Positions 6,951-30,998 of a stretch of DNA of 39,901 nucleotides are shown here, piece after piece; the stretch's first letter is position 1; the number at the start of each line of letters is the position of its first letter. Source of the DNA: a virus; IMG/VR virus record IMGVR_UViG_3300030119_000996, positions 1 through 39,901 of that record. One strand, 5' to 3'. The position numbers and the translations under genes were made by a program. Under the pieces are notes generated by a model. It saw only the letters and a list, made by a program, of their open reading frames with translations, was not told the DNA's origin and made no database searches.

Positions 6951-6984
6951 GAACCGTACGTGACGGTTTCCCGTCATACGGCTC
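6951..6984 (-). ncRNA. group II intron domain V
   Basis: Reading the minus strand, the 34-base catalytic hairpin begins GAGCCGTATG, has a GAAA-type tetraloop between CGG and CCG, and closes with CGTACGGTTC. This is the most conserved part of group II introns and fixes the strand and 3' side of the element. It overlaps the last bases of the reverse transcriptase stop codon (6983-6985). Domain VI follows at about 6911-6945 as a hairpin with complementary GGGAGCT and AGCTCC arms. Confidence 0.92.
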
Positions 6985-8734
6985 AAGCCTCTGTAAGGCA
7001 CGACCGTGGTCGCACCCGGTGCAGCGGGGCAGTCATCCCGGTTTGTTTGTGATGACATGCCGTATGCATAAGACAAGATTTTTCCGGTTCGTCTTGATCT
7101 GCGGGATTGTCGGACATGACGGTGTAAACACCCAGATCATTCTGGAATGTACCCGTATCATCCATCGTTCCCAGGGGCAGACCACAGATCGGACAGAGTC
7201 CTCCCTGCAAGAACCAGAGTGCGCGAGCACTCAATGAATGCCACGAAACGCGCTTCATACGCTGTCTTTCGCGGTTGATAAAGTAGTCATACCAATCCGG
7301 GTCATAAGGGTTGGCATCCATCTTTATCTTTGAGTGCCTGACAATCCGAATTCTGGTGGGCAACAGAATGACCCTGAGTCTCTTATCAGGGTCACGACCC
7401 TGAAAGATCCAGTCCCGTGTACCGATACGGGAGAAGTACCTGTCATGAATCCACCGTGCGCCTTTATTGCGATGTCTGCGCACGGCCCACCGCCATAGGG
7501 ATTTCCAGATCGCGTTTTCAACTGCGGAGAAGGTATCACTACTGACGACATGACGATAATAATTACACCATCCCCTTATCTTGGGGTTGAGTATTTTGAT
7601 CATCGAATATGCCGGAATAGTGGGATTACTCTTGATCGTTCCTCGAATCTCTTTCAAGAATGCCTTTACGCATTTGCGTGCAGGTCGGACAAACAACTTG
7701 CCGTCGGTCTTCTTGAAATTGAAACTAAGAAAATCAAAGCCTTCGTCGATATGCGTGATGACGGTCTTTTCTTCCGAGAGAGTCAATCCTCTTTCGGCCA
7801 TAAAATCCCGCACCAACGGTTGAACTTCATTTTCAAGGAGTTCCTTTGAATCTCCCGTAATAATGAAGTCATCCGCATAGCGCACCAAATGAATCTTTGG
7901 ATTCGTCCGGATGCGACGCCGACCCCAAGTACTGATGCGGCCTGCGAGCATTCCTTGTCGCATGAACTCCTCAAAAAGAAGGCGTTCAAGCCCGTCCAAA
8001 GCCATATTGGCCAGAATCGGTGAAATGATACCGCCTTGCGGTGTTCCCGATTCCGTATCGAAGAAGTTGCCTTCTTCCATATATCCCGCCTTCAACCACT
8101 GTCGGAGAATTCGTTTCTCCATGGGCACGTTATTCACGAGCCATTGATGGCTGATGTTGTCGAAGCAGCCTTTGATGTCCCCTTCAAGTATCCACTGCGC
8201 ACAGTTTTTGCGACTAAGCGTTGCAAAACAGTATTCCTCGGCATCCGCACAAGATCGCTTGCGACGAAATCCGAAAGAACCTTTGTCCGCAGTACATTCC
8301 GCCACGGGGTCCAGTGCCAGCCGGTATAGTGCCTGCATGGCTCGGTCCGTCATGGTGGGGATACCCAAGGGACGTTTCTTGCCGTTCGACTTGGGAATAT
8401 ATACGCGGCGGAGCGGCTTGGCTTTGTACCTTTCAGGGCGCAATTCCCGAATGGCCTTCGCCTTCTTCCTCGGCGAGTTCCAAAGCTTGCCGTCCACCCC
8501 AGCAGTTCTCCTGCCTTTGTTTTCCGTCACCCGTTTAACCGCCAATGCCTTGGCAGCAAACGAGCGAGTCAGGATGCGTGACAAGGCCTTGACCTTGCCG
8601 TAGCGTCCTTGCTTCTGCGCCTTCACGATTCGAGCTTGAAGACGCTGGATGATCTTGTCGACTTTGCGCCAGTCAATGGCATTCCAGTCCGCAAGCTCAG
8701 AGGCGCGCACGTCGGAGTTGCCTTCGACGTTCAT
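6983..8734 (-). CDS. ltrA: group II intron reverse transcriptase/maturase
   Basis: A 583-residue intron-encoded protein. Visible in order: RT0-RT1 segment, [10 protein letters not shown]...[11 protein letters not shown] (about 106-131), RT motif with [10 protein letters not shown] (152-161), DIKGCFDNI (186-194), GTPQGG (230-235), the catalytic YADD (286-289), a maturase X domain with Gly-Trp-Cys-Asn-Tyr-Tyr (388-393), and a C-terminal segment with CPICGLPL (514-521) and CHHK (560-563). The last part resembles the HNH-type endonuclease region of chloroplast-like introns, but the usual central His-His pair is missing and a second-strand nuclease may be inactive. The ATG at 8734 is chosen because upstream codons lie in the structured intron RNA; the frame stays open to 8905. 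Confidence 0.93.
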
Positions 8735-9317
8735 TGTTTCGCTTTCCTTGATTCTCATTCCACGACTCCAATCGTAATCGTGATCAGTTACCTGTCCGAA
8801 GTCTGCTCCCTTTCGGGCGGGGCAACGCACCCCTATCCCTTCCATTACAGAAGGGCATTCGCTTTTTCGGACCTCCTTTACCCGCACCCGGTCAGCTCGC
8901 CTCACGGCGATCTGTCCCTGGGATCTGTCGTTGCGCGATCCGCGGGAACGAATACGGGCTTACTGCGTTACGCTTATGCACCCGAGTTGGGTTAGGTCCT
9001 GCCTCTCCGCCGGGGAGACTGTGTTCCGCGAAAGCCGGATGGGACAGCCAGCTTTCCCGCTCCCATGCCCTGTTTGGGCTGAGCCTGTCAGCACCTTTGG
9101 CTCATTCCTTTTGACGACGTTTCAAGCAGTTCACTTACATTGACCATACCACTCAAGCCTTGCCTCCCGTCGCATCGGTGCTTGCGACTGCGGCTCACCT
9201 CACGGTTTGCCTTATAAGGAGTACGTTGTCTCCGGGGCTTCACACAAACGGATTACTCCAAATGCATGCCCGGGTAGGCTACCGCTGGCGGAACAGCGGC
9301 TCTGATCACTCTCCTTT

Positions 9318-18948: not shown

Positions 18949-19293
18949 ATGCCACGTCCCAACCGACAACGCGACGTGACGTTCCGTGTCATCGACGATC
19001 ACCTGGAAATGCACGTCACCTTCAAGCATCAGCCGGACCGCAATTACGTCCACCGATGCACGCGCGATGTGTTCCGCGACGTTGCTTATGCCATTGAAGA
19101 CCATGCTGCAGGCGGCACGACACATGAGCAAATCGTCCATGTCATTGACGCGCCCTGCACACAGGTCAACGTCGCGTTGGCTTTCATGAAGGAACGCGGA
19201 TGCGTCGAAACCCGTCACCGTCGCACCTTCCCGGCGTCGGACATCGTGTACGAGGACGCCATGATTGAGTTCATGCATCTGGCAGATCACTGA
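18949..19293 (+). CDS. small protein with winged-helix-like C-terminus
   Basis: A 114-residue basic protein, fifth and last of the island, starting three bases after the previous stop with a GGGAG ribosome site. The region Thr-Thr-His-Glu-Gln-Ile-Val-His-Val-Ile-Asp-Ala-Pro-Cys-Thr-Gln-Val-Asn-Val-Ala-Leu-Ala-Phe-Met-Lys-Glu-Arg-Gly-Cys-Val-Glu (residues about 57-86) looks like helix-turn-helix plus wing, followed by Arg-His-Arg-Arg-Thr-Phe. A DNA-binding role is likely from shape, not proven. Its end overlaps the end of the convergent methyltransferase gene by seven bases. Confidence 0.65.
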   Translation: MPRPNRQRDVTFRVIDDHLEMHVTFKHQPDRNYVHRCTRDVFRDVAYAIEDHAAGGTTHEQIVHVIDAPCTQVNVALAFMKERGCVETRHRRTFPASDIVYEDAMIEFMHLADH

Positions 19294-20669
19294 TCGCATG
19301 CAACCACCTCCTTCTTCACCCCGGCATCCGTCGGGGTTTTCTCAGTGGCAGCAATCCGCTGTGCCTTCCGGCCCGAAAATTCTTCCCAACGTTTCACGAT
19401 GATGTCACAATAGAGATCATCAAGTTCCATCAGGAATGCGTTGCGTCCGGTCTGCTCACAGCCGATGAGTGTCGATCCGCTGCCACCGAATAAATCCAAC
19501 ACGTTGTCACCAGGTATCGATGAATATTGGAGCGCACGGATCGCCAGTTCGACCGGTTTCTCGGTGAGGTGGGACATGGCCTGAGGATTCACCTTCTTAA
19601 TGGGCCACAGATCAAGCGCGTTGGTAGGACCCCTGAAGGTGTGACCTGCTCCCTGCTTCCAAGTATAAAAACAAATTTCGAAGCAATTCATCATATCCTT
19701 CCGTGTTAAAACAGGATGCAGCTTATTCCAGACGATGCACTGGCTGAAGTAAAACCCTGCTTCTTTGAGTGCAGCAGGATAGTTGGCGAGGTTGGCATAG
19801 CCGCCCCAGATGTAGGCGGTTTTGCCAGGCTTCATCACGCGCGATGCATTGTTGAACCATGCCCGCAGCAACCTGTCGAACTCTTCCTCGGTCACGAAGT
19901 CATTGGCCAGAGGACGATCCTTGGCACGGAGTTTTTTCTGCGTCGGCTTGTTCTTTTCCGGGTGACGAGCGACATCCATTTTTTGATGATGTGTTTGCTT
20001 GAAGGATGAATTGCCAGCGGCGATGGCATTGTTGGAACGTGGCTCCAGGCGGACATTATACGGCGGGTCGGTATGTAGCAGATCAATGGTTGCGCCATCC
20101 AACAGACGATCCAAATCTTCCTCCGAACTACTGTCGCCACACATCAGACGATGGTTGCCGAGTATCCAAATGTCACCGCGTTTGGTGGTCGCTGCATCCG
20201 GTGGCTCGGGGATGGAATCTGGATCAGTCAAGCCTTCCTGCACGCCTTGGGCGGCATTGAGCAATTGTCCGAGTTCCTCTTCATCGAAGGCCAAAATGTC
20301 CATGTCGAATCCACCCTCACGCAACTCGTTGAGTTCGATGGGCAGGATGGACATGTCCCACTCGGCGATTTCGCCAGTGCGGTTGTCGGCCAGGCGGTAT
20401 GCACGAACTTGCTCCGCTGTCAGATCGGTGGCCACATGCACCGGCACCTTGGCAAGGCCGAGTTTTGTTGCGGCTTTCCAGCGCGTGTGTCCGGCGATGA
20501 TCACGCCGTCCTCGTCCACGACGATGGGTTGCCGAAACCCAAACTCCGACAGCGATGCGGCCACGGCATCCACCGCCTTGTCATTTAGACGCGGGTTGCG
20601 TTCATAGGGTTTGACGTCCTCAATGTTGCGAAGTTCGACGGCAAAGTTGGCAGTAGCGGTATTGGTCAT
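19287..20669 (-). CDS. ParB-domain DNA methyltransferase (adenine or cytosine-N4)
   Basis: A 460-residue protein. The N-terminal part (about 10-135) is ParB/sulfiredoxin-like, with Asn-Pro-Arg and Ala-Gly-His-Thr-Arg (59-63). The C-terminal part is an amino-methyltransferase: catalytic Asp-Pro-Pro-Tyr (201-204), a target-recognition insert rich in Lys, and Leu-Phe-Gly-Gly-Ser-Gly-Ser-Thr (about 394-401) binding S-adenosylmethionine. DPPY before FxGxG is the beta-group order. No restriction enzyme gene accompanies it other than the small HNH gene upstream, so self-protection or regulation of phage DNA is likely. ATG overlaps the HNH stop; a strong AAAGGAA ribosome site is present. Confidence 0.9.
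   Translation of the reverse strand: MTNTATANFAVELRNIEDVKPYERNPRLNDKAVDAVAASLSEFGFRQPIVVDEDGVIIAGHTRWKAATKLGLAKVPVHVATDLTAEQVRAYRLADNRTGEIAEWDMSILPIELNELREGGFDMDILAFDEEELGQLLNAAQGVQEGLTDPDSIPEPPDAATTKRGDIWILGNHRLMCGDSSSEEDLDRLLDGATIDLLHTDPPYNVRLEPRSNNAIAAGNSSFKQTHHQKMDVARHPEKNKPTQKKLRAKDRPLANDFVTEEEFDRLLRAWFNNASRVMKPGKTAYIWGGYANLANYPAALKEAGFYFSQCIVWNKLHPVLTRKDMMNCFEICFYTWKQGAGHTFRGPTNALDLWPIKKVNPQAMSHLTEKPVELAIRALQYSSIPGDNVLDLFGGSGSTLIGCEQTGRNAFLMELDDLYCDIIVKRWEEFSGRKAQRIAATEKTPTDAGVKKEVVACDQ
19318..19341 (+). terminator. intrinsic terminator closing the plus-strand island
   Basis: CCCCG and CGGGG arms (19319-19323 and 19332-19336) around an eight-base loop are followed by TTTTC. It lies just past the last plus-strand gene, inside the 3' end of the convergent methyltransferase gene. 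Confidence 0.65.
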
Positions 20670-21288: not shown

Positions 21289-21527
21289 GCATTGATTGAT
21301 CCTTATGGGTTAAAAATTTTGCGGCGCGTTCACAACAAACTGTTCCATATAACGTGGCTCGTTCCGCCGCCATCGAAAAGGCCCCTGGGGGAAGGAACCA
21401 TTGCATGATCGGCACAGGTCGCCCCCTGCGGCCGCCCGCCGTCACAGGCGGTACAGGTCTACCTGCCCAGCCCGGACGCCACAGACGCCAACCTGTGGCG
21501 ATGTAGGGCGAGCGAGTTGAGCATGGA

Positions 21528-21758
21528 TCATGAAGCTGCTTTGCGCAGACATGCGTCACAGTTTTTGTGTCCCGAGCGTGGTTCGAATTTGCCGCACCAA
21601 TCGTTTGGCCAGACAGCGGGCCAGGCGATACGGTTGGGAAGTAAGCGACACTCATCGTCTATGCTCGGAACGGGTGCATGGCGATGACAAGTACCCAATT
21701 GGTTTTTCATATCACCAAATTCAAAATATTTACAATCACGACAATGCGATTCATACAT
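21528..21758 (-). CDS. small zinc-finger-like protein
   Basis: A 76-residue protein with Cys-Arg-Asp-Cys (7-10), Cys-His-Arg-His-Ala-Pro (24-29), Trp-Pro ... Asn-Asp-Trp-Cys-Gly-Lys-Phe (about 46-58) and a terminal Cys-Asp-Ala-Cys. The spacing C-x2-C ... C-x-R-H-A-P ... W-C-G-x-F is a pattern found widely in small phage proteins and probably binds zinc. Function unknown; could be a regulator or replication accessory since it is the first gene downstream of the iteron region and the primase gene. Confidence 0.7.
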   Translation of the reverse strand: MYESHCRDCKYFEFGDMKNQLGTCHRHAPVPSIDDECRLLPNRIAWPAVWPNDWCGKFEPRSGHKNCDACLRKAAS

Positions 21759-22085
21759 TCAGTAGTTCCTTTACGTAGGTAGTTTGATATTCATTTCCGG
21801 CCACAGAGGAAGATATGATCAGGCCCCAAAAAGAAAACCGAGAAAACCGCGCCTCGCACGCGTACGCGCGCACACGCGGCGCGGGGGGTATAGTAAGAGA
21901 GAGAGTGTTTTTCTATATATATTATTCATAAGTTCTTTTTCTATTGCCCTTTGCGATTTTGAGAAAACCGTTTTTTGTTGCGCGGTTTTCTGCGGTTTTC
22001 TTCGGTTTTCTCCCCCAATTGGGGCGATTGGCGGGTATTTTGCGTGTTGATGCAGAGAAAACCGCGCGGTTTTCTCCCCGGTGTT
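21759..22085. other. candidate phage replication origin (iteron cluster)
   Basis: This 327-bp stretch has no gene. It contains eight exact copies of the 9-mer AGAAAACCG or its complement: at 21832, 21841 and 21962 and 22056 in plus orientation, and at 21983, 21993, 22003 and 22067 in the other. The three at 21983-22011 have an exact 10-bp period, i.e. one DNA turn. The copies at 22056 and 22067 form a 22-bp perfect palindrome (22055-22076). A second palindrome, CCCCAATTGGGG, lies at 22013-22024. Between the outer and inner groups is an A+T-rich run with TATATATATT (about 21914-21960), suitable as an unwinding element. It directly follows the primase-helicase gene. Iterons plus an A+T-rich region are the standard make-up of replication origins. 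Confidence 0.7.
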
Positions 22086-24359
22086 TCACAGAAGTATCCA
22101 ACCCTTTCGCGGTTTGGTACTGCCTTCAATGGTTTGAAACAGGATGCGTTTCTGCTTGGTCAGCGCTTCGATGATGTTGTCATAGGTGCTGGGACTGGTG
22201 GCCATATGTCGACGCAGACGCCAGTCGGGCATGGGATACCAATCCTCTTTGCCAGAGTGTTTGCTACGGATGAGGTAGCGCAATGCCTTCTTGCACTCGG
22301 CATCAAAATCGTTGGTACTGACATATTGATTGGCCATGTAGAGCATGCGCTGGATCTGATGCTCGACGAACGCGCTGGCCCAGCGTACGGCATCGACACT
22401 GATTTCCGGTTGGGTGTGGTTTTCACTGCATGCGTAGAGCAGCGCCAGCTTGCGGGCGTTTTCATTGGCACGGCCCCACACCGTCATCGCCACTTCGTCT
22501 TTGCGATCCTCAGCCTGGGCGTATTCACGATCAGCGCTTTGCCGGAAGTCATTGATGATTGTTTTGGCCTGGTCGCTGTAGGGCACAATGACGGGCACCG
22601 GGTAAAAACCGAGGAGGTTGCCACGATGTTCGCCTGGCTGGTAATTGCCCCACCAGCGCGCGGTTTCCACCAGGCGGTCGGGCATGCTGTCGACGAGCCC
22701 GGGTTCCTGACCTGCTGAACGTTTACCCGTATCCACGATGACCATGCGGGCGAAGAAGCCATTGGTGAGCATGCGTTCGGACATGGCCTCGTAATAGTGC
22801 GTGGGTGTCGCGGTGCCGAAAACGGTGAGATGTGGTTGATGGATGACACCGGGGATGCGCGGCTTGCCGGCCTTGGATCGCATGGAATACATCATGCTGG
22901 CTGAGGAGAACAGTTCCAGCAGCACGGTCATGATCGATTCATTGCGCGCGTCCTTGGCTTTGCTGACGGCCTGGAGAATGCCGTCGATCTCATCGGTTTG
23001 ATACATCGTGCAAGGCTGAGTAGCCAGTTGATCTTCGATGCCTTCACCGGATGCAAACTTGCGGCAAAGCGAATCGGCCATGTTGGCCGCGATGGCCAGG
23101 TGGGCGTTGATCTGGCGCGGGTAGTTCTTGCCGGCAGAGGATGAACCCAAGGCGAGCAGATAAATGTTGGTGCGCAGGTCGCCGGCTTCCCGCACCTTAC
23201 GCCCGCAGAGATAGGATTGCATGGCCAGAGCGCCACAGAATGCCATGCCCAGGGACGGGTACGGCGCATTGGCCATGCAGAAGTCGATCACCTCACCGAT
23301 GAACCCGGGAATGTAGAGCAGGTTTTCAGGGAGCGGCCCCGGATCGGGTACGGTTAATGTGGCATCATCCTGTTCATCACCAGCCAGGATGCCCGATAGG
23401 TCCACATCGGAATTGTCCTGATCATTGAGATCATTACCGAACCCGTTCTTGGCCAACGTCTTGGTCGCTGCGGTAAAGTCACCACCGTGTTCCAGCAGTG
23501 CATACACAGCAAACGGCGAGTAACCACGATTGGGCTCAAACGGGTCGGCGTTGGATGAGAAAACATAAAACACGCGATCCTTGAGCGTGGCCGACCAGCC
23601 GGTGTCTTTGCCTGGGCGACGCCAGTATTCGTTTTCACCGGGCGCGGCCAGCGTCCAGCCGTGTGTGCGTAGCAGGTCCTGCACTTCACCGCGTTTGTTG
23701 AAATCGTCACCCGGTCTGTAAGCATTGTCGGTCGCACAATGGCCATTGTCCGCAGACATCTGGCACCTGTGCGAATGGTGGGCCGATGTACTCGCACCAT
23801 CGACCACCGGTGGGCAGTATTCATTGAGTTCCCAGGCCGTTTGCAACAACGTGTCACGCTGTGCTTCAGTGAGGACGGGCAGGTGTCCCAAGTCGCTCTG
23901 CATCAGCTCATAGCCCGGTGTGGGTGAACAGAGGAATAGTCCACCTTCACCACGGGTTTCGATAAGCGTCAAGATTTTGTCGTCGGCTTTGCGCTGGGCC
24001 AGTTTGATGTTGCCGCAGACGGGCACATCGCAACGATAGATCACATGCATGCCACCGGAAGGTGTCGATTCGATCACCAGATGGTCACGTAGATCAGCGG
24101 GAATACGATCCATCCAAGCAGGGAACAATTCACCGCCACCATCGAAGTCGATGATCTCCAGATTGCCGGAGACTTGGCCGCAGATGATGCACACGGCATC
24201 GCCCCATGGCCATGAGTTGAGTTCAGCAGGCAGTGGTAACCGCTGCTGATATTGTTTCCACTTGCCAATGGCCGGACGTTTTTCCGTGCGAATCGCTGGC
24301 AGGACAGACAAGCCGACATCCAAGTAGTTTTGAGCGGTATTCATGATTGGTTCATTCAT
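22086..24359 (-). CDS. PrimPol primase-DUF3987 helicase fusion
   Basis: A 757-residue replication protein. The N-terminal bifunctional primase/polymerase domain shows Ile-Asp-Phe-Asp-Gly-Gly (70-75) with catalytic Asp residues and Glu-Ser-Thr-Pro-Ser-Gly-Gly-Met-His (97-105). A middle region with Lys-Gly-Arg-like spacing leads to a DUF3987-type helicase/ATPase domain with Walker A Gly-Ser-Ser-Ser-Ala-Gly-Lys-Asn-Tyr (405-413) and a following Tyr-Gln-Thr-Asp-Glu-Ile-Asp-Gly Walker-B-like segment. It would prime and unwind at the phage origin, which lies just past its stop codon. The ATG at 24359 overlaps the stop of the upstream gene; a second ATG five codons on is possible. Confidence 0.88.
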   Translation of the reverse strand: MNEPIMNTAQNYLDVGLSVLPAIRTEKRPAIGKWKQYQQRLPLPAELNSWPWGDAVCIICGQVSGNLEIIDFDGGGELFPAWMDRIPADLRDHLVIESTPSGGMHVIYRCDVPVCGNIKLAQRKADDKILTLIETRGEGGLFLCSPTPGYELMQSDLGHLPVLTEAQRDTLLQTAWELNEYCPPVVDGASTSAHHSHRCQMSADNGHCATDNAYRPGDDFNKRGEVQDLLRTHGWTLAAPGENEYWRRPGKDTGWSATLKDRVFYVFSSNADPFEPNRGYSPFAVYALLEHGGDFTAATKTLAKNGFGNDLNDQDNSDVDLSGILAGDEQDDATLTVPDPGPLPENLLYIPGFIGEVIDFCMANAPYPSLGMAFCGALAMQSYLCGRKVREAGDLRTNIYLLALGSSSAGKNYPRQINAHLAIAANMADSLCRKFASGEGIEDQLATQPCTMYQTDEIDGILQAVSKAKDARNESIMTVLLELFSSASMMYSMRSKAGKPRIPGVIHQPHLTVFGTATPTHYYEAMSERMLTNGFFARMVIVDTGKRSAGQEPGLVDSMPDRLVETARWWGNYQPGEHRGNLLGFYPVPVIVPYSDQAKTIINDFRQSADREYAQAEDRKDEVAMTVWGRANENARKLALLYACSENHTQPEISVDAVRWASAFVEHQIQRMLYMANQYVSTNDFDAECKKALRYLIRSKHSGKEDWYPMPDWRLRRHMATSPSTYDNIIEALTKQKRILFQTIEGSTKPRKGWILL

Positions 24360-24766
24360 CAGTTGCACAGGATTTCCTTTGTTTGATTCATGGCCGAGTT
24401 GGCTAAGGCCCAGTCTTTCCACGCGGCAATCTCCCGCCGCAACACATTGATATCTGCCAGCTCGGGCGGCGATATCTTTCCCTTCCATACAGTCCGGAAG
24501 CTGTCGACCGCCATCCGTTCCGCATCACCTTCAACGACAAACACGGTCGCCGGGCAGAGTAAAGTCAGTCGTTCAAACAAAAGTTCCTGACCTTTGCAGA
24601 TGCGTTGATGCTCTTTCCATTCGAGGAACAGGAGATTGCCACTGATTTCCGTCACGGCATCAATGTCGCTGAAGGCGATCCGACCGGGCAGACAATCGGC
24701 AAACATTTCGATCTTGGGACGTTTCTTGAGATTGAAGCAGCCCTGCCGATTACAGTTCCAGAGCAT
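24359..24766 (-). CDS. small nuclease-like protein (EWK motif)
   Basis: A 135-residue protein. The section Gly-Arg-Ile-Ala-Phe-Ser-Asp-Ile-Asp-Ala-Val-Thr-Glu-Ile (29-42) followed by Leu-Phe-Leu-Glu-Trp-Lys-Glu (47-53) and Gly-Gln-Glu (59-61) matches the D...(D/E)XK...Q arrangement of small PD-(D/E)XK nucleases such as VRR-NUC or resolvase relatives; the Asp34/Asp36, Glu49 and Lys51 would be the metal-binding and catalytic residues. Located between an N6-adenine methyltransferase and the primase, so a role in recombination or processing of replication forks is plausible. The exact family is not settled. Start chosen as the first ATG after the upstream stop. Confidence 0.65.
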   Translation of the reverse strand: MLWNCNRQGCFNLKKRPKIEMFADCLPGRIAFSDIDAVTEISGNLLFLEWKEHQRICKGQELLFERLTLLCPATVFVVEGDAERMAVDSFRTVWKGKISPPELADINVLRREIAAWKDWALANSAMNQTKEILCN

Positions 24767-30200: not shown

Positions 30201-30998
30201 TTAATGCTTGTGTTTGGCCGTTTGGTTCGACGTGGGTGTATCGGCCTGCGTCATCGCTTCCATCAGGGCATACCATGACAGTGGTAATTCCGCTGGCAAA
30301 CCGAAGCGATTCTTGGCCACGCAGGCTGGACTGCCCACGCAGCGGAGAATACGTTCACCACCATCCTTGCCCAGACCGGAGGCAAGCGTGCGTGTGCGAT
30401 TAAAGCCAGTGTCTTCCGTTCGCGTGATCACCTTGCGTGTGGCAAACAACACGGCGTCAGCCCATTCGGTAATCACTGCATTGGCATGTTTGTGCAATCG
30501 CGGGGAAAACCGATCATACGCACCGACTTCCGGATCGGAGAAGGTTTCCACCTTGGCATGGGCCAAGCAGATCACACACATGCTGCGATCCTTACGCAGC
30601 ACATCCAGGCCGGAGAGGATGGTTCGCCAATGCGTCAGGGCATGTGTGTAGCCTCGGGCATAACCGCCGTCGACCTTTTCGATACTGCTGACACCATACT
30701 CGCGGCAAAGACGATCCCAGACAAGGCGTTCGAGCCAGTCCAAAGAGTCGATGACAACTGTCTGGTATTCATGCTTCTCGTTGATCAAAGCATCGATGGA
30801 TTTGATCACATCATCGAACTTGGTGGCCAAGGGGAAGCTGGCACAATCGATCTGGTCCAAGCCTTCTTCCGTGGGAATGAATACCGCATTGGGTGCTTGC
30901 GATGCGGTGGTGGATTTACCGATTCCTTCGATACCGTAAAGCACCATGCGGGGCGGTTGTTGCTTGGGACCTTGATGAATCTGCTGGATTAATGACAT
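30201..30998 (-). CDS. Sak4/RecA-like phage ATPase
   Basis: A 265-residue ATPase with Walker A Gly-Ile-Glu-Gly-Ile-Gly-Lys-Ser-Thr (22-30), an acidic Pro-Thr-Glu-Glu-Gly (42-46) and Walker B Val-Val-Ile-Asp-Ser-Leu-Asp-Trp-Leu (81-89). The size and motif spacing match the AAA_24/Sak4 group of phage single-strand annealing proteins related to RecA/RadA. It would pair the single strands made by the upstream nuclease. The gene overlaps the upstream winged-helix gene by ten bases and is followed by the DUF669 gene. Confidence 0.85.
   Translation of the reverse strand: MSLIQQIHQGPKQQPPRMVLYGIEGIGKSTTASQAPNAVFIPTEEGLDQIDCASFPLATKFDDVIKSIDALINEKHEYQTVVIDSLDWLERLVWDRLCREYGVSSIEKVDGGYARGYTHALTHWRTILSGLDVLRKDRSMCVICLAHAKVETFSDPEVGAYDRFSPRLHKHANAVITEWADAVLFATRKVITRTEDTGFNRTRTLASGLGKDGGERILRCVGSPACVAKNRFGLPAELPLSWYALMEAMTQADTPTSNQTAKHKH

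Follow-up and report, generated by a model that had tools for sequence, protein, structure and literature searches.

The window, that is, the whole stretch of 39,901 nucleotides that was analysed, carries a tailed-phage prophage of Phycisphaerae, and near-identical or related loci are found in Phycisphaerae genomes. The prophage encodes a serine integrase, a sigma factor, exonuclease VIII, Sak4, SSB, RusA, a helicase, a PrimPol-helicase, a ParB-N/methyltransferase, terminase, portal, capsid protease and tape measure. A reverse transcriptase gene was also seen among the structural genes (6983-8905, minus strand; phrog_1423, E 3e-103). Several related prophages can occur in one genome, as in CP087563.1 (L017-L021 and L023) and on contigs 31, 69 and 86 of the host genome, and in-frame stop codons are present in the primase copies L018, L019 and L021 and in the contig-69 copy (L177). 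The locus under study lies on the minus strand. It comprises the 800-codon PrimPol-helicase gene (22086-24488), whose product is the proposed initiator; a non-coding interval between the stop codon of this gene (22086) and the start of the next ORF (21758), which is the proposed replication origin (21759-22085); a 76-residue cysteine-rich ORF directly after the interval (21528-21758), which is not conserved with the repeats; and, on the far side of the repeats, the ParB-N/DNA methyltransferase gene (19287-20669).

The primase-helicase matched the Pfam family Prim-Pol (PF09250, E 1e-7) and the DNA primase family phrog_3022. An earlier note on this DNA had labelled it PrimPol-DUF3987; the Prim-Pol part of the label holds for the window protein, in which Pfam did not match DUF3987, and among 66 aligned homologs Prim-Pol was matched in 61 and DUF3987 in 48. 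Neither a Rep/D5 family nor a Rep_3-type initiator domain was matched by Pfam. An AlphaFold2 model built with 66 homologs (pLDDT 90) has an N-terminal primase domain whose closest structure is pRN1 ORF904 (1rni, E 2e-6), and an AAA+ part with weak resemblance to MCM. At the C-terminus the model predicts, with high confidence, a winged-helix domain (CTD; residues 726-800, 22089-22313, minus strand), proposed from the model and from co-variation to be the reader of the repeats. Its helices span residues 727-744, 755-762 (second helix, 22203-22226) and 766-778 (third helix, 22155-22193), its strands residues 782-787 and 794-799, and its wing lies at about 22110-22127; residue 756 starts the second helix, and residues 789 and 792 are in the wing. 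A structural search with the CTD alone returned generic winged helices, Zalpha Z-DNA-binding domains included, with the P4 origin-binding domain not among the matches listed, and a sequence profile of the CTD found no clear PDB relative, so these searches do not fix its nearest family.

Within the interval, from 21832 to 22075, the 9-mer AGAAAACCG occurs in eight exact copies, four on each strand (plus strand at 21832, 21841, 21962 and 22056; minus strand at 21983, 21993, 22003 and 22067), and nowhere else in the window. When the full 39.9 kb was shuffled with its dinucleotide content preserved, a mean of 0.27 copies resulted and eight were never reached, in agreement with the chance expectation of about 0.002 copies per 245 bp given in the earlier note. 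An AT-rich run (21908-21946) with TATATATATT at 21914-21923, a candidate melting region, separates six copies on the primase side (set A) from two on the far side (set B). Set A is made up of an inverted pair forming the 22-bp palindrome GAGAAAACCGCGCGGTTTTCTC (22055-22076), three minus-strand copies at an exact 10-bp period (21983, 21993 and 22003; 21983-22011) and an inverted plus-strand copy (21962-21970); set B consists of two head-to-tail plus-strand copies (21832-21849). The interval also holds a CTCTCTCTC tract (21897-21905, minus strand), common to homologs with different words, and a GC-rich alternating purine-pyrimidine tract (21855-21878). The number and orientation of the copies, the 10-bp period, the palindromic pair and the adjoining A+T-rich run were all as first read from the sequence. 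A further palindrome noted at that time, CCCCAATTGGGG, is indeed present at 22014-22025 but is lacking in L010 and L011, which are close relatives; it was rejected as an essential part and is probably incidental. An Rfam search of this region found no family matches.

Primase homologs were drawn from viral contigs and genomes and dereplicated to 131 loci, and a word was taken as significantly repeated if no more than one in 100 dinucleotide shuffles attained its 8-mer count. Such a word was present directly 3' of the primase gene in 83 of the 131 loci, and about a third of the homologs had none; in controls, four or more copies occurred in only 2/131 and 2/107 stretches. The word varies by clade and includes AGAAAACCG in the clade of the window, CACGTTTC in L012 and L013, and GTGAAGGATT, GTGACGGATT, GGTGAAAC, GGTGAAAGAAG, ACCTATTGC, AACTCATTGC and others elsewhere. 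Three further elements recur across the homologs: CTCTCTC (49/81; controls 0/81 and 0/66), the alternating GC tract (50/81; controls 1/81 and 0/66) and TATATA (31/81; controls 2/81 and 3/66). The words flank the CT tract on both sides in 44 of the 49 homologs that have it. Non-conservation of the repeats in related phages had been named in the earlier note as grounds for abandoning its reading; these comparisons show that the place is kept and that the word differs. The alternating GC tract, at 21855-21878 in the window and found in 50 of 81 loci, could form Z-DNA. At loci with an HSVLLKRMK-type CTD (for example L105, L106 and L118), the iterons overlap the 3' end of the primase coding sequence, giving the protein a repetitive tail, GVKxGGETxPGGET, which is therefore encoded by putative binding sites.

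Repeated words 3' of the primase were also found in more distant relatives, namely Sphingomonas phages Lucius and Kharn, E. coli phage Halfdan and pC, a phage-plasmid of Spartinivicinus ruber. Halfdan has an arrangement similar to that of the window, with the words GTATAAGG in the interval 30,323-30,623. Thirteen distant relatives, cultured or plasmid, were examined, and 9 of them had no repeated words. GC skew gave no clear signal in the window, pC, Halfdan or Lucius, where it is confounded by gene strand.

The comparison of related prophages proposed in the earlier note, for co-variation of the iteron with one protein, was carried out, and the word was found to track the primase CTD. Word sharing between loci was predicted by CTD identity with an AUC of 0.931, by helicase identity with 0.749 and by the PrimPol domain with 0.572; in a partial Mantel test, word and CTD remained associated given the helicase (r 0.64, p 0.001). 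Since adjacency alone could give a gradient of this kind, the ParB/methyltransferase gene was chosen as a control; its distance from the primase stop codon ranges from a few hundred bases to about 2 kb, so that the control is close but not fully symmetrical. Over the same 58 loci it reached an AUC of 0.656, as against 0.94 for the CTD, and physical linkage alone is therefore insufficient. Mere co-inheritance of word and CTD through adjacency, with repeats that have no function, would account for the drop in association from CTD to helicase to PrimPol, but it is extremely improbable given the weak association of the gene across the array, the conservation among relatives of the words but not of the spacers between them, and a repeat number far above that of shuffles. 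The residue-to-base pattern, the near-isogenic pair and the prospective prediction given below also speak against it.

Natural chimeras separate the CTD from the remainder of the protein. Between the window and L013 the PrimPol domains are 88% identical, the CTDs 14% identical, and the words different. Conversely, in L100 and L182 an L012-type helicase (72-74%) is joined to a CTD 55-59% identical to that of the window, and the word is the same as in the window, AGAAAACC. The word class of the window rests on few independent lineages: the window, L010/L011, L100/L182 and L333. Both types occur among the prophages of the host genome, with AGAAAACCG on contigs 31 and 69 and CACGTTTC on contig 86. 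Other GAGAAAACCG sites in the host genome were considered and set aside: one close inverted pair, on contig 69, proved to be the array of another prophage of this type, and the remaining sites are single.

Three candidate binders had been proposed, a ParB-like protein, a small zinc-finger protein and the primase itself, and only the last is favoured, through its C-terminal winged helix. Another phage protein (the ParB-N/methyltransferase, HNH or cysteine-rich protein) might bind the repeats as a partition or packaging site, and in 65 of 81 loci the ParB-N/methyltransferase gene is indeed found no more than 5 kb downstream. We consider this very unlikely, because the word follows the CTD and not the ParB protein, and because ParB proteins about 77-78% identical (L012 and L013) go with different words. 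In L014 the stretch from the array to the ParB gene yielded no cysteine-rich protein, and the L012 and L013 versions are very dissimilar. Comparative sequence evidence thus strongly supports the primase CTD as the favoured reader of the repeats, to which it would bind physically.

The relation between CTD residues and bases was analysed in 47 dereplicated loci with GTGA-core words, using the numbering of the window protein. At position 756, Q occurred with GTGAAG in 10/10 loci, S with GTGAAA in 28/31, and N or R with GTGACG in 6/6; at wing position 789, T occurred with G in 30/31 and R with C in 10/12. The near-isogenic pair L118 and L027, with helicases 89% and CTDs 76% identical, differs accordingly at corresponding iteron positions, S756 being found with GTGAAAGAAG and Q756 with GTGAAGGAAG. 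When independent pairs were taken from a tree of the helicase domain, the wing class went the same way in 5.5 of 6 (none opposite, p 0.03), and residue 756 offered only two well-supported independent pairs, none of them opposite. A proposal that the wing residue (TKTKTA versus TKTKPA) decides between AATCCTTC and AATCCGTC was rejected: L038 has a T-type wing and a G-type word, which its helix residues RNKLM fit instead.

The rules were fixed at this stage, on the basis of the first loci; among loci with weak arrays they gave the right word in 12 of 18 (p 0.0015). In a prospective test on 26 newly fetched loci, 17 were predictable and 13 of these were predicted correctly (permutation mean 5.3, p 0.0002); because the new loci are related to the first set, this is a test of prediction and not of independence. 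One miss, L318, has a GW wing, which had gone with C already in the first set. The new set also contained a window-type CTD (L333) with AGAAAACC and FWxL-type CTDs with ACCTATTG. These data lean towards a modular code in the CTDs of PrimPol-DUF3987 initiators, in which residues 756 and 759, where the second helix begins, would set bases 5-6 of the word and wing residues 789 and 792 bases 7-10. If this is so, origin specificity could be read from the protein sequence, and new origins could come about through point mutations or through exchange of CTD and array as one cassette. No earlier description of this co-variation of word and CTD was found in the literature searched.

Taken with the conserved place of the repeats in homologs, these results support the reading of the interval as an origin. 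We estimate a probability of about 0.86 that it is the replication origin of the prophage, with its own PrimPol-helicase as the initiator and the CTD reading AGAAAACCG; the repeat cluster is very probably a site at which replication of a bacterial virus starts. The place, the two-sided layout and the specific co-variation of word and CTD all emerge from the comparison of loci, and layout and precedent suggest how such an origin might function. The CTDs of several primase subunits would dock on both iteron sets, in both orientations, and thereby position the AAA+ helicase rings on the AT-rich core, which the rings would open; the PrimPol domain would then make the first primers at the opened core, perhaps on the CT tract.

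The CTD-bound repeats might instead serve mainly as an operator for the replication genes or those that follow, with replication starting elsewhere. The array does lie between two genes of one operon, before the next ORF, and iterons of known replicons often also regulate expression or copy number. An operator role of this kind is nevertheless unlikely, since the array comes after the primase gene and not before it, the sets stand on two sides of an AT-rich core, the CT and GC tracts are kept where the words differ, and a similar array is present on the phage-plasmid pC.

An origin with this layout is of a known kind, because the origins of PICIs likewise have two sets of repeats flanking an AT-rich core directly 3' of the initiator gene; the proposed natural initiator-origin recognition code is the new and unusual part. 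In PICIs an AT-rich region is surrounded by two iteron sets, and replication of a cloned pri-rep-ori segment is documented (PMC6092414). The C-terminal domain of SaPI Rep is described in PMC7581432 as recognising iterons directly downstream of its gene. The window shares with these elements the position of the iterons directly downstream of the (proposed) initiator gene and the two sets (A and B) flanking an AT-rich region. Initiator and origin are matched in these elements, and fold and co-variation suggest that in the window, too, a C-terminal domain would read the cognate iteron. The window differs in that primase-polymerase and helicase form one protein of archaeo-eukaryotic type, in the additional CT and alternating GC tracts, and in words of 8-10 bp that occur in both orientations and differ by clade with single CTD residues. 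In SCCmec, direct repeats situated downstream of the operon that encodes the Cch2 helicase are bound by this protein, whose C-terminal domain was assayed on them, and the primase CCPol-MP prefers start sites in the origin (PMC7581432). An initiator helicase with repeats downstream of its genes is common to both systems; in SCCmec the proteins are separate and there are three 5-nt iterons. We know of no recognition code across relatives of Cch2. The proposed initiator of the window is a Prim-Pol protein with no Rep_3 match, unlike those of the classical iteron plasmids (RepA/TrfA/pi).

The alpha protein of phage P4 (ori/crr) is a primase-helicase whose C-terminal winged-helix origin-binding domain binds iterons. 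The window protein resembles it in being a primase-helicase with a C-terminal winged helix and iterons, but the P4 helicase is of a different family. P4, whose primase is Toprim-type, has been compared with pRN1 (PMC4234260). The origin of pRN1, directly 3' of its AEP primase gene, is a 100-nt stem-loop without iterons, and stem-loops were proposed by the same authors for this protein type (PMC4234260). ORF904 of pRN1 and the window protein both combine an AEP primase, a helicase and a C-terminal winged helix with a (proposed) origin immediately 3' of the gene. The window has iterons, though the region, taken as single-stranded DNA, is also strongly folding (z -4.9), which makes a stem-loop role like that in pRN1 conceivable. 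PrimQH and related PrimPol-PV1 primases combine PrimPol, a DUF3987-type ATPase and a C-terminal winged helix, and origin recognition by the winged helix has been suggested for DUF3987-containing primases, without sites (PMC5862659). Most of the aligned homologs share Prim-Pol, and most DUF3987, with these proteins, the window protein itself Prim-Pol only; the present analysis differs in identifying candidate sites and co-varying residues. It thus provides candidate sites and reading residues for a winged helix whose part in PrimPol-DUF3987 origins had only been suggested, a large set of naturally occurring initiator-origin matches, with near-isogenic pairs and chimeras, for testing a recognition code, and a route from sequence to the replication origins of many phages and prophages that are uncultured.

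Another conserved element, also non-coding, was observed between the array and the ParB/methyltransferase gene (window about 21334-21399, minus strand; L207:5614-5681; L041:9072-9139). It consists of GGT[T/A]C[C/T]TTCC(CGGC), about 30 nt, GCGGGAACAGTCGC and then GGCA[G/C]AGTTTGTT. No Rfam match and no co-varying structure were found for it. In the window the element lies inside a called HNH ORF, the N-terminal third of which is therefore doubtful. At a near-constant length of 66-69 nt it recurs in about 35 loci whose iteron words differ, and it is possibly a packaging (cos-like) or recombination site.
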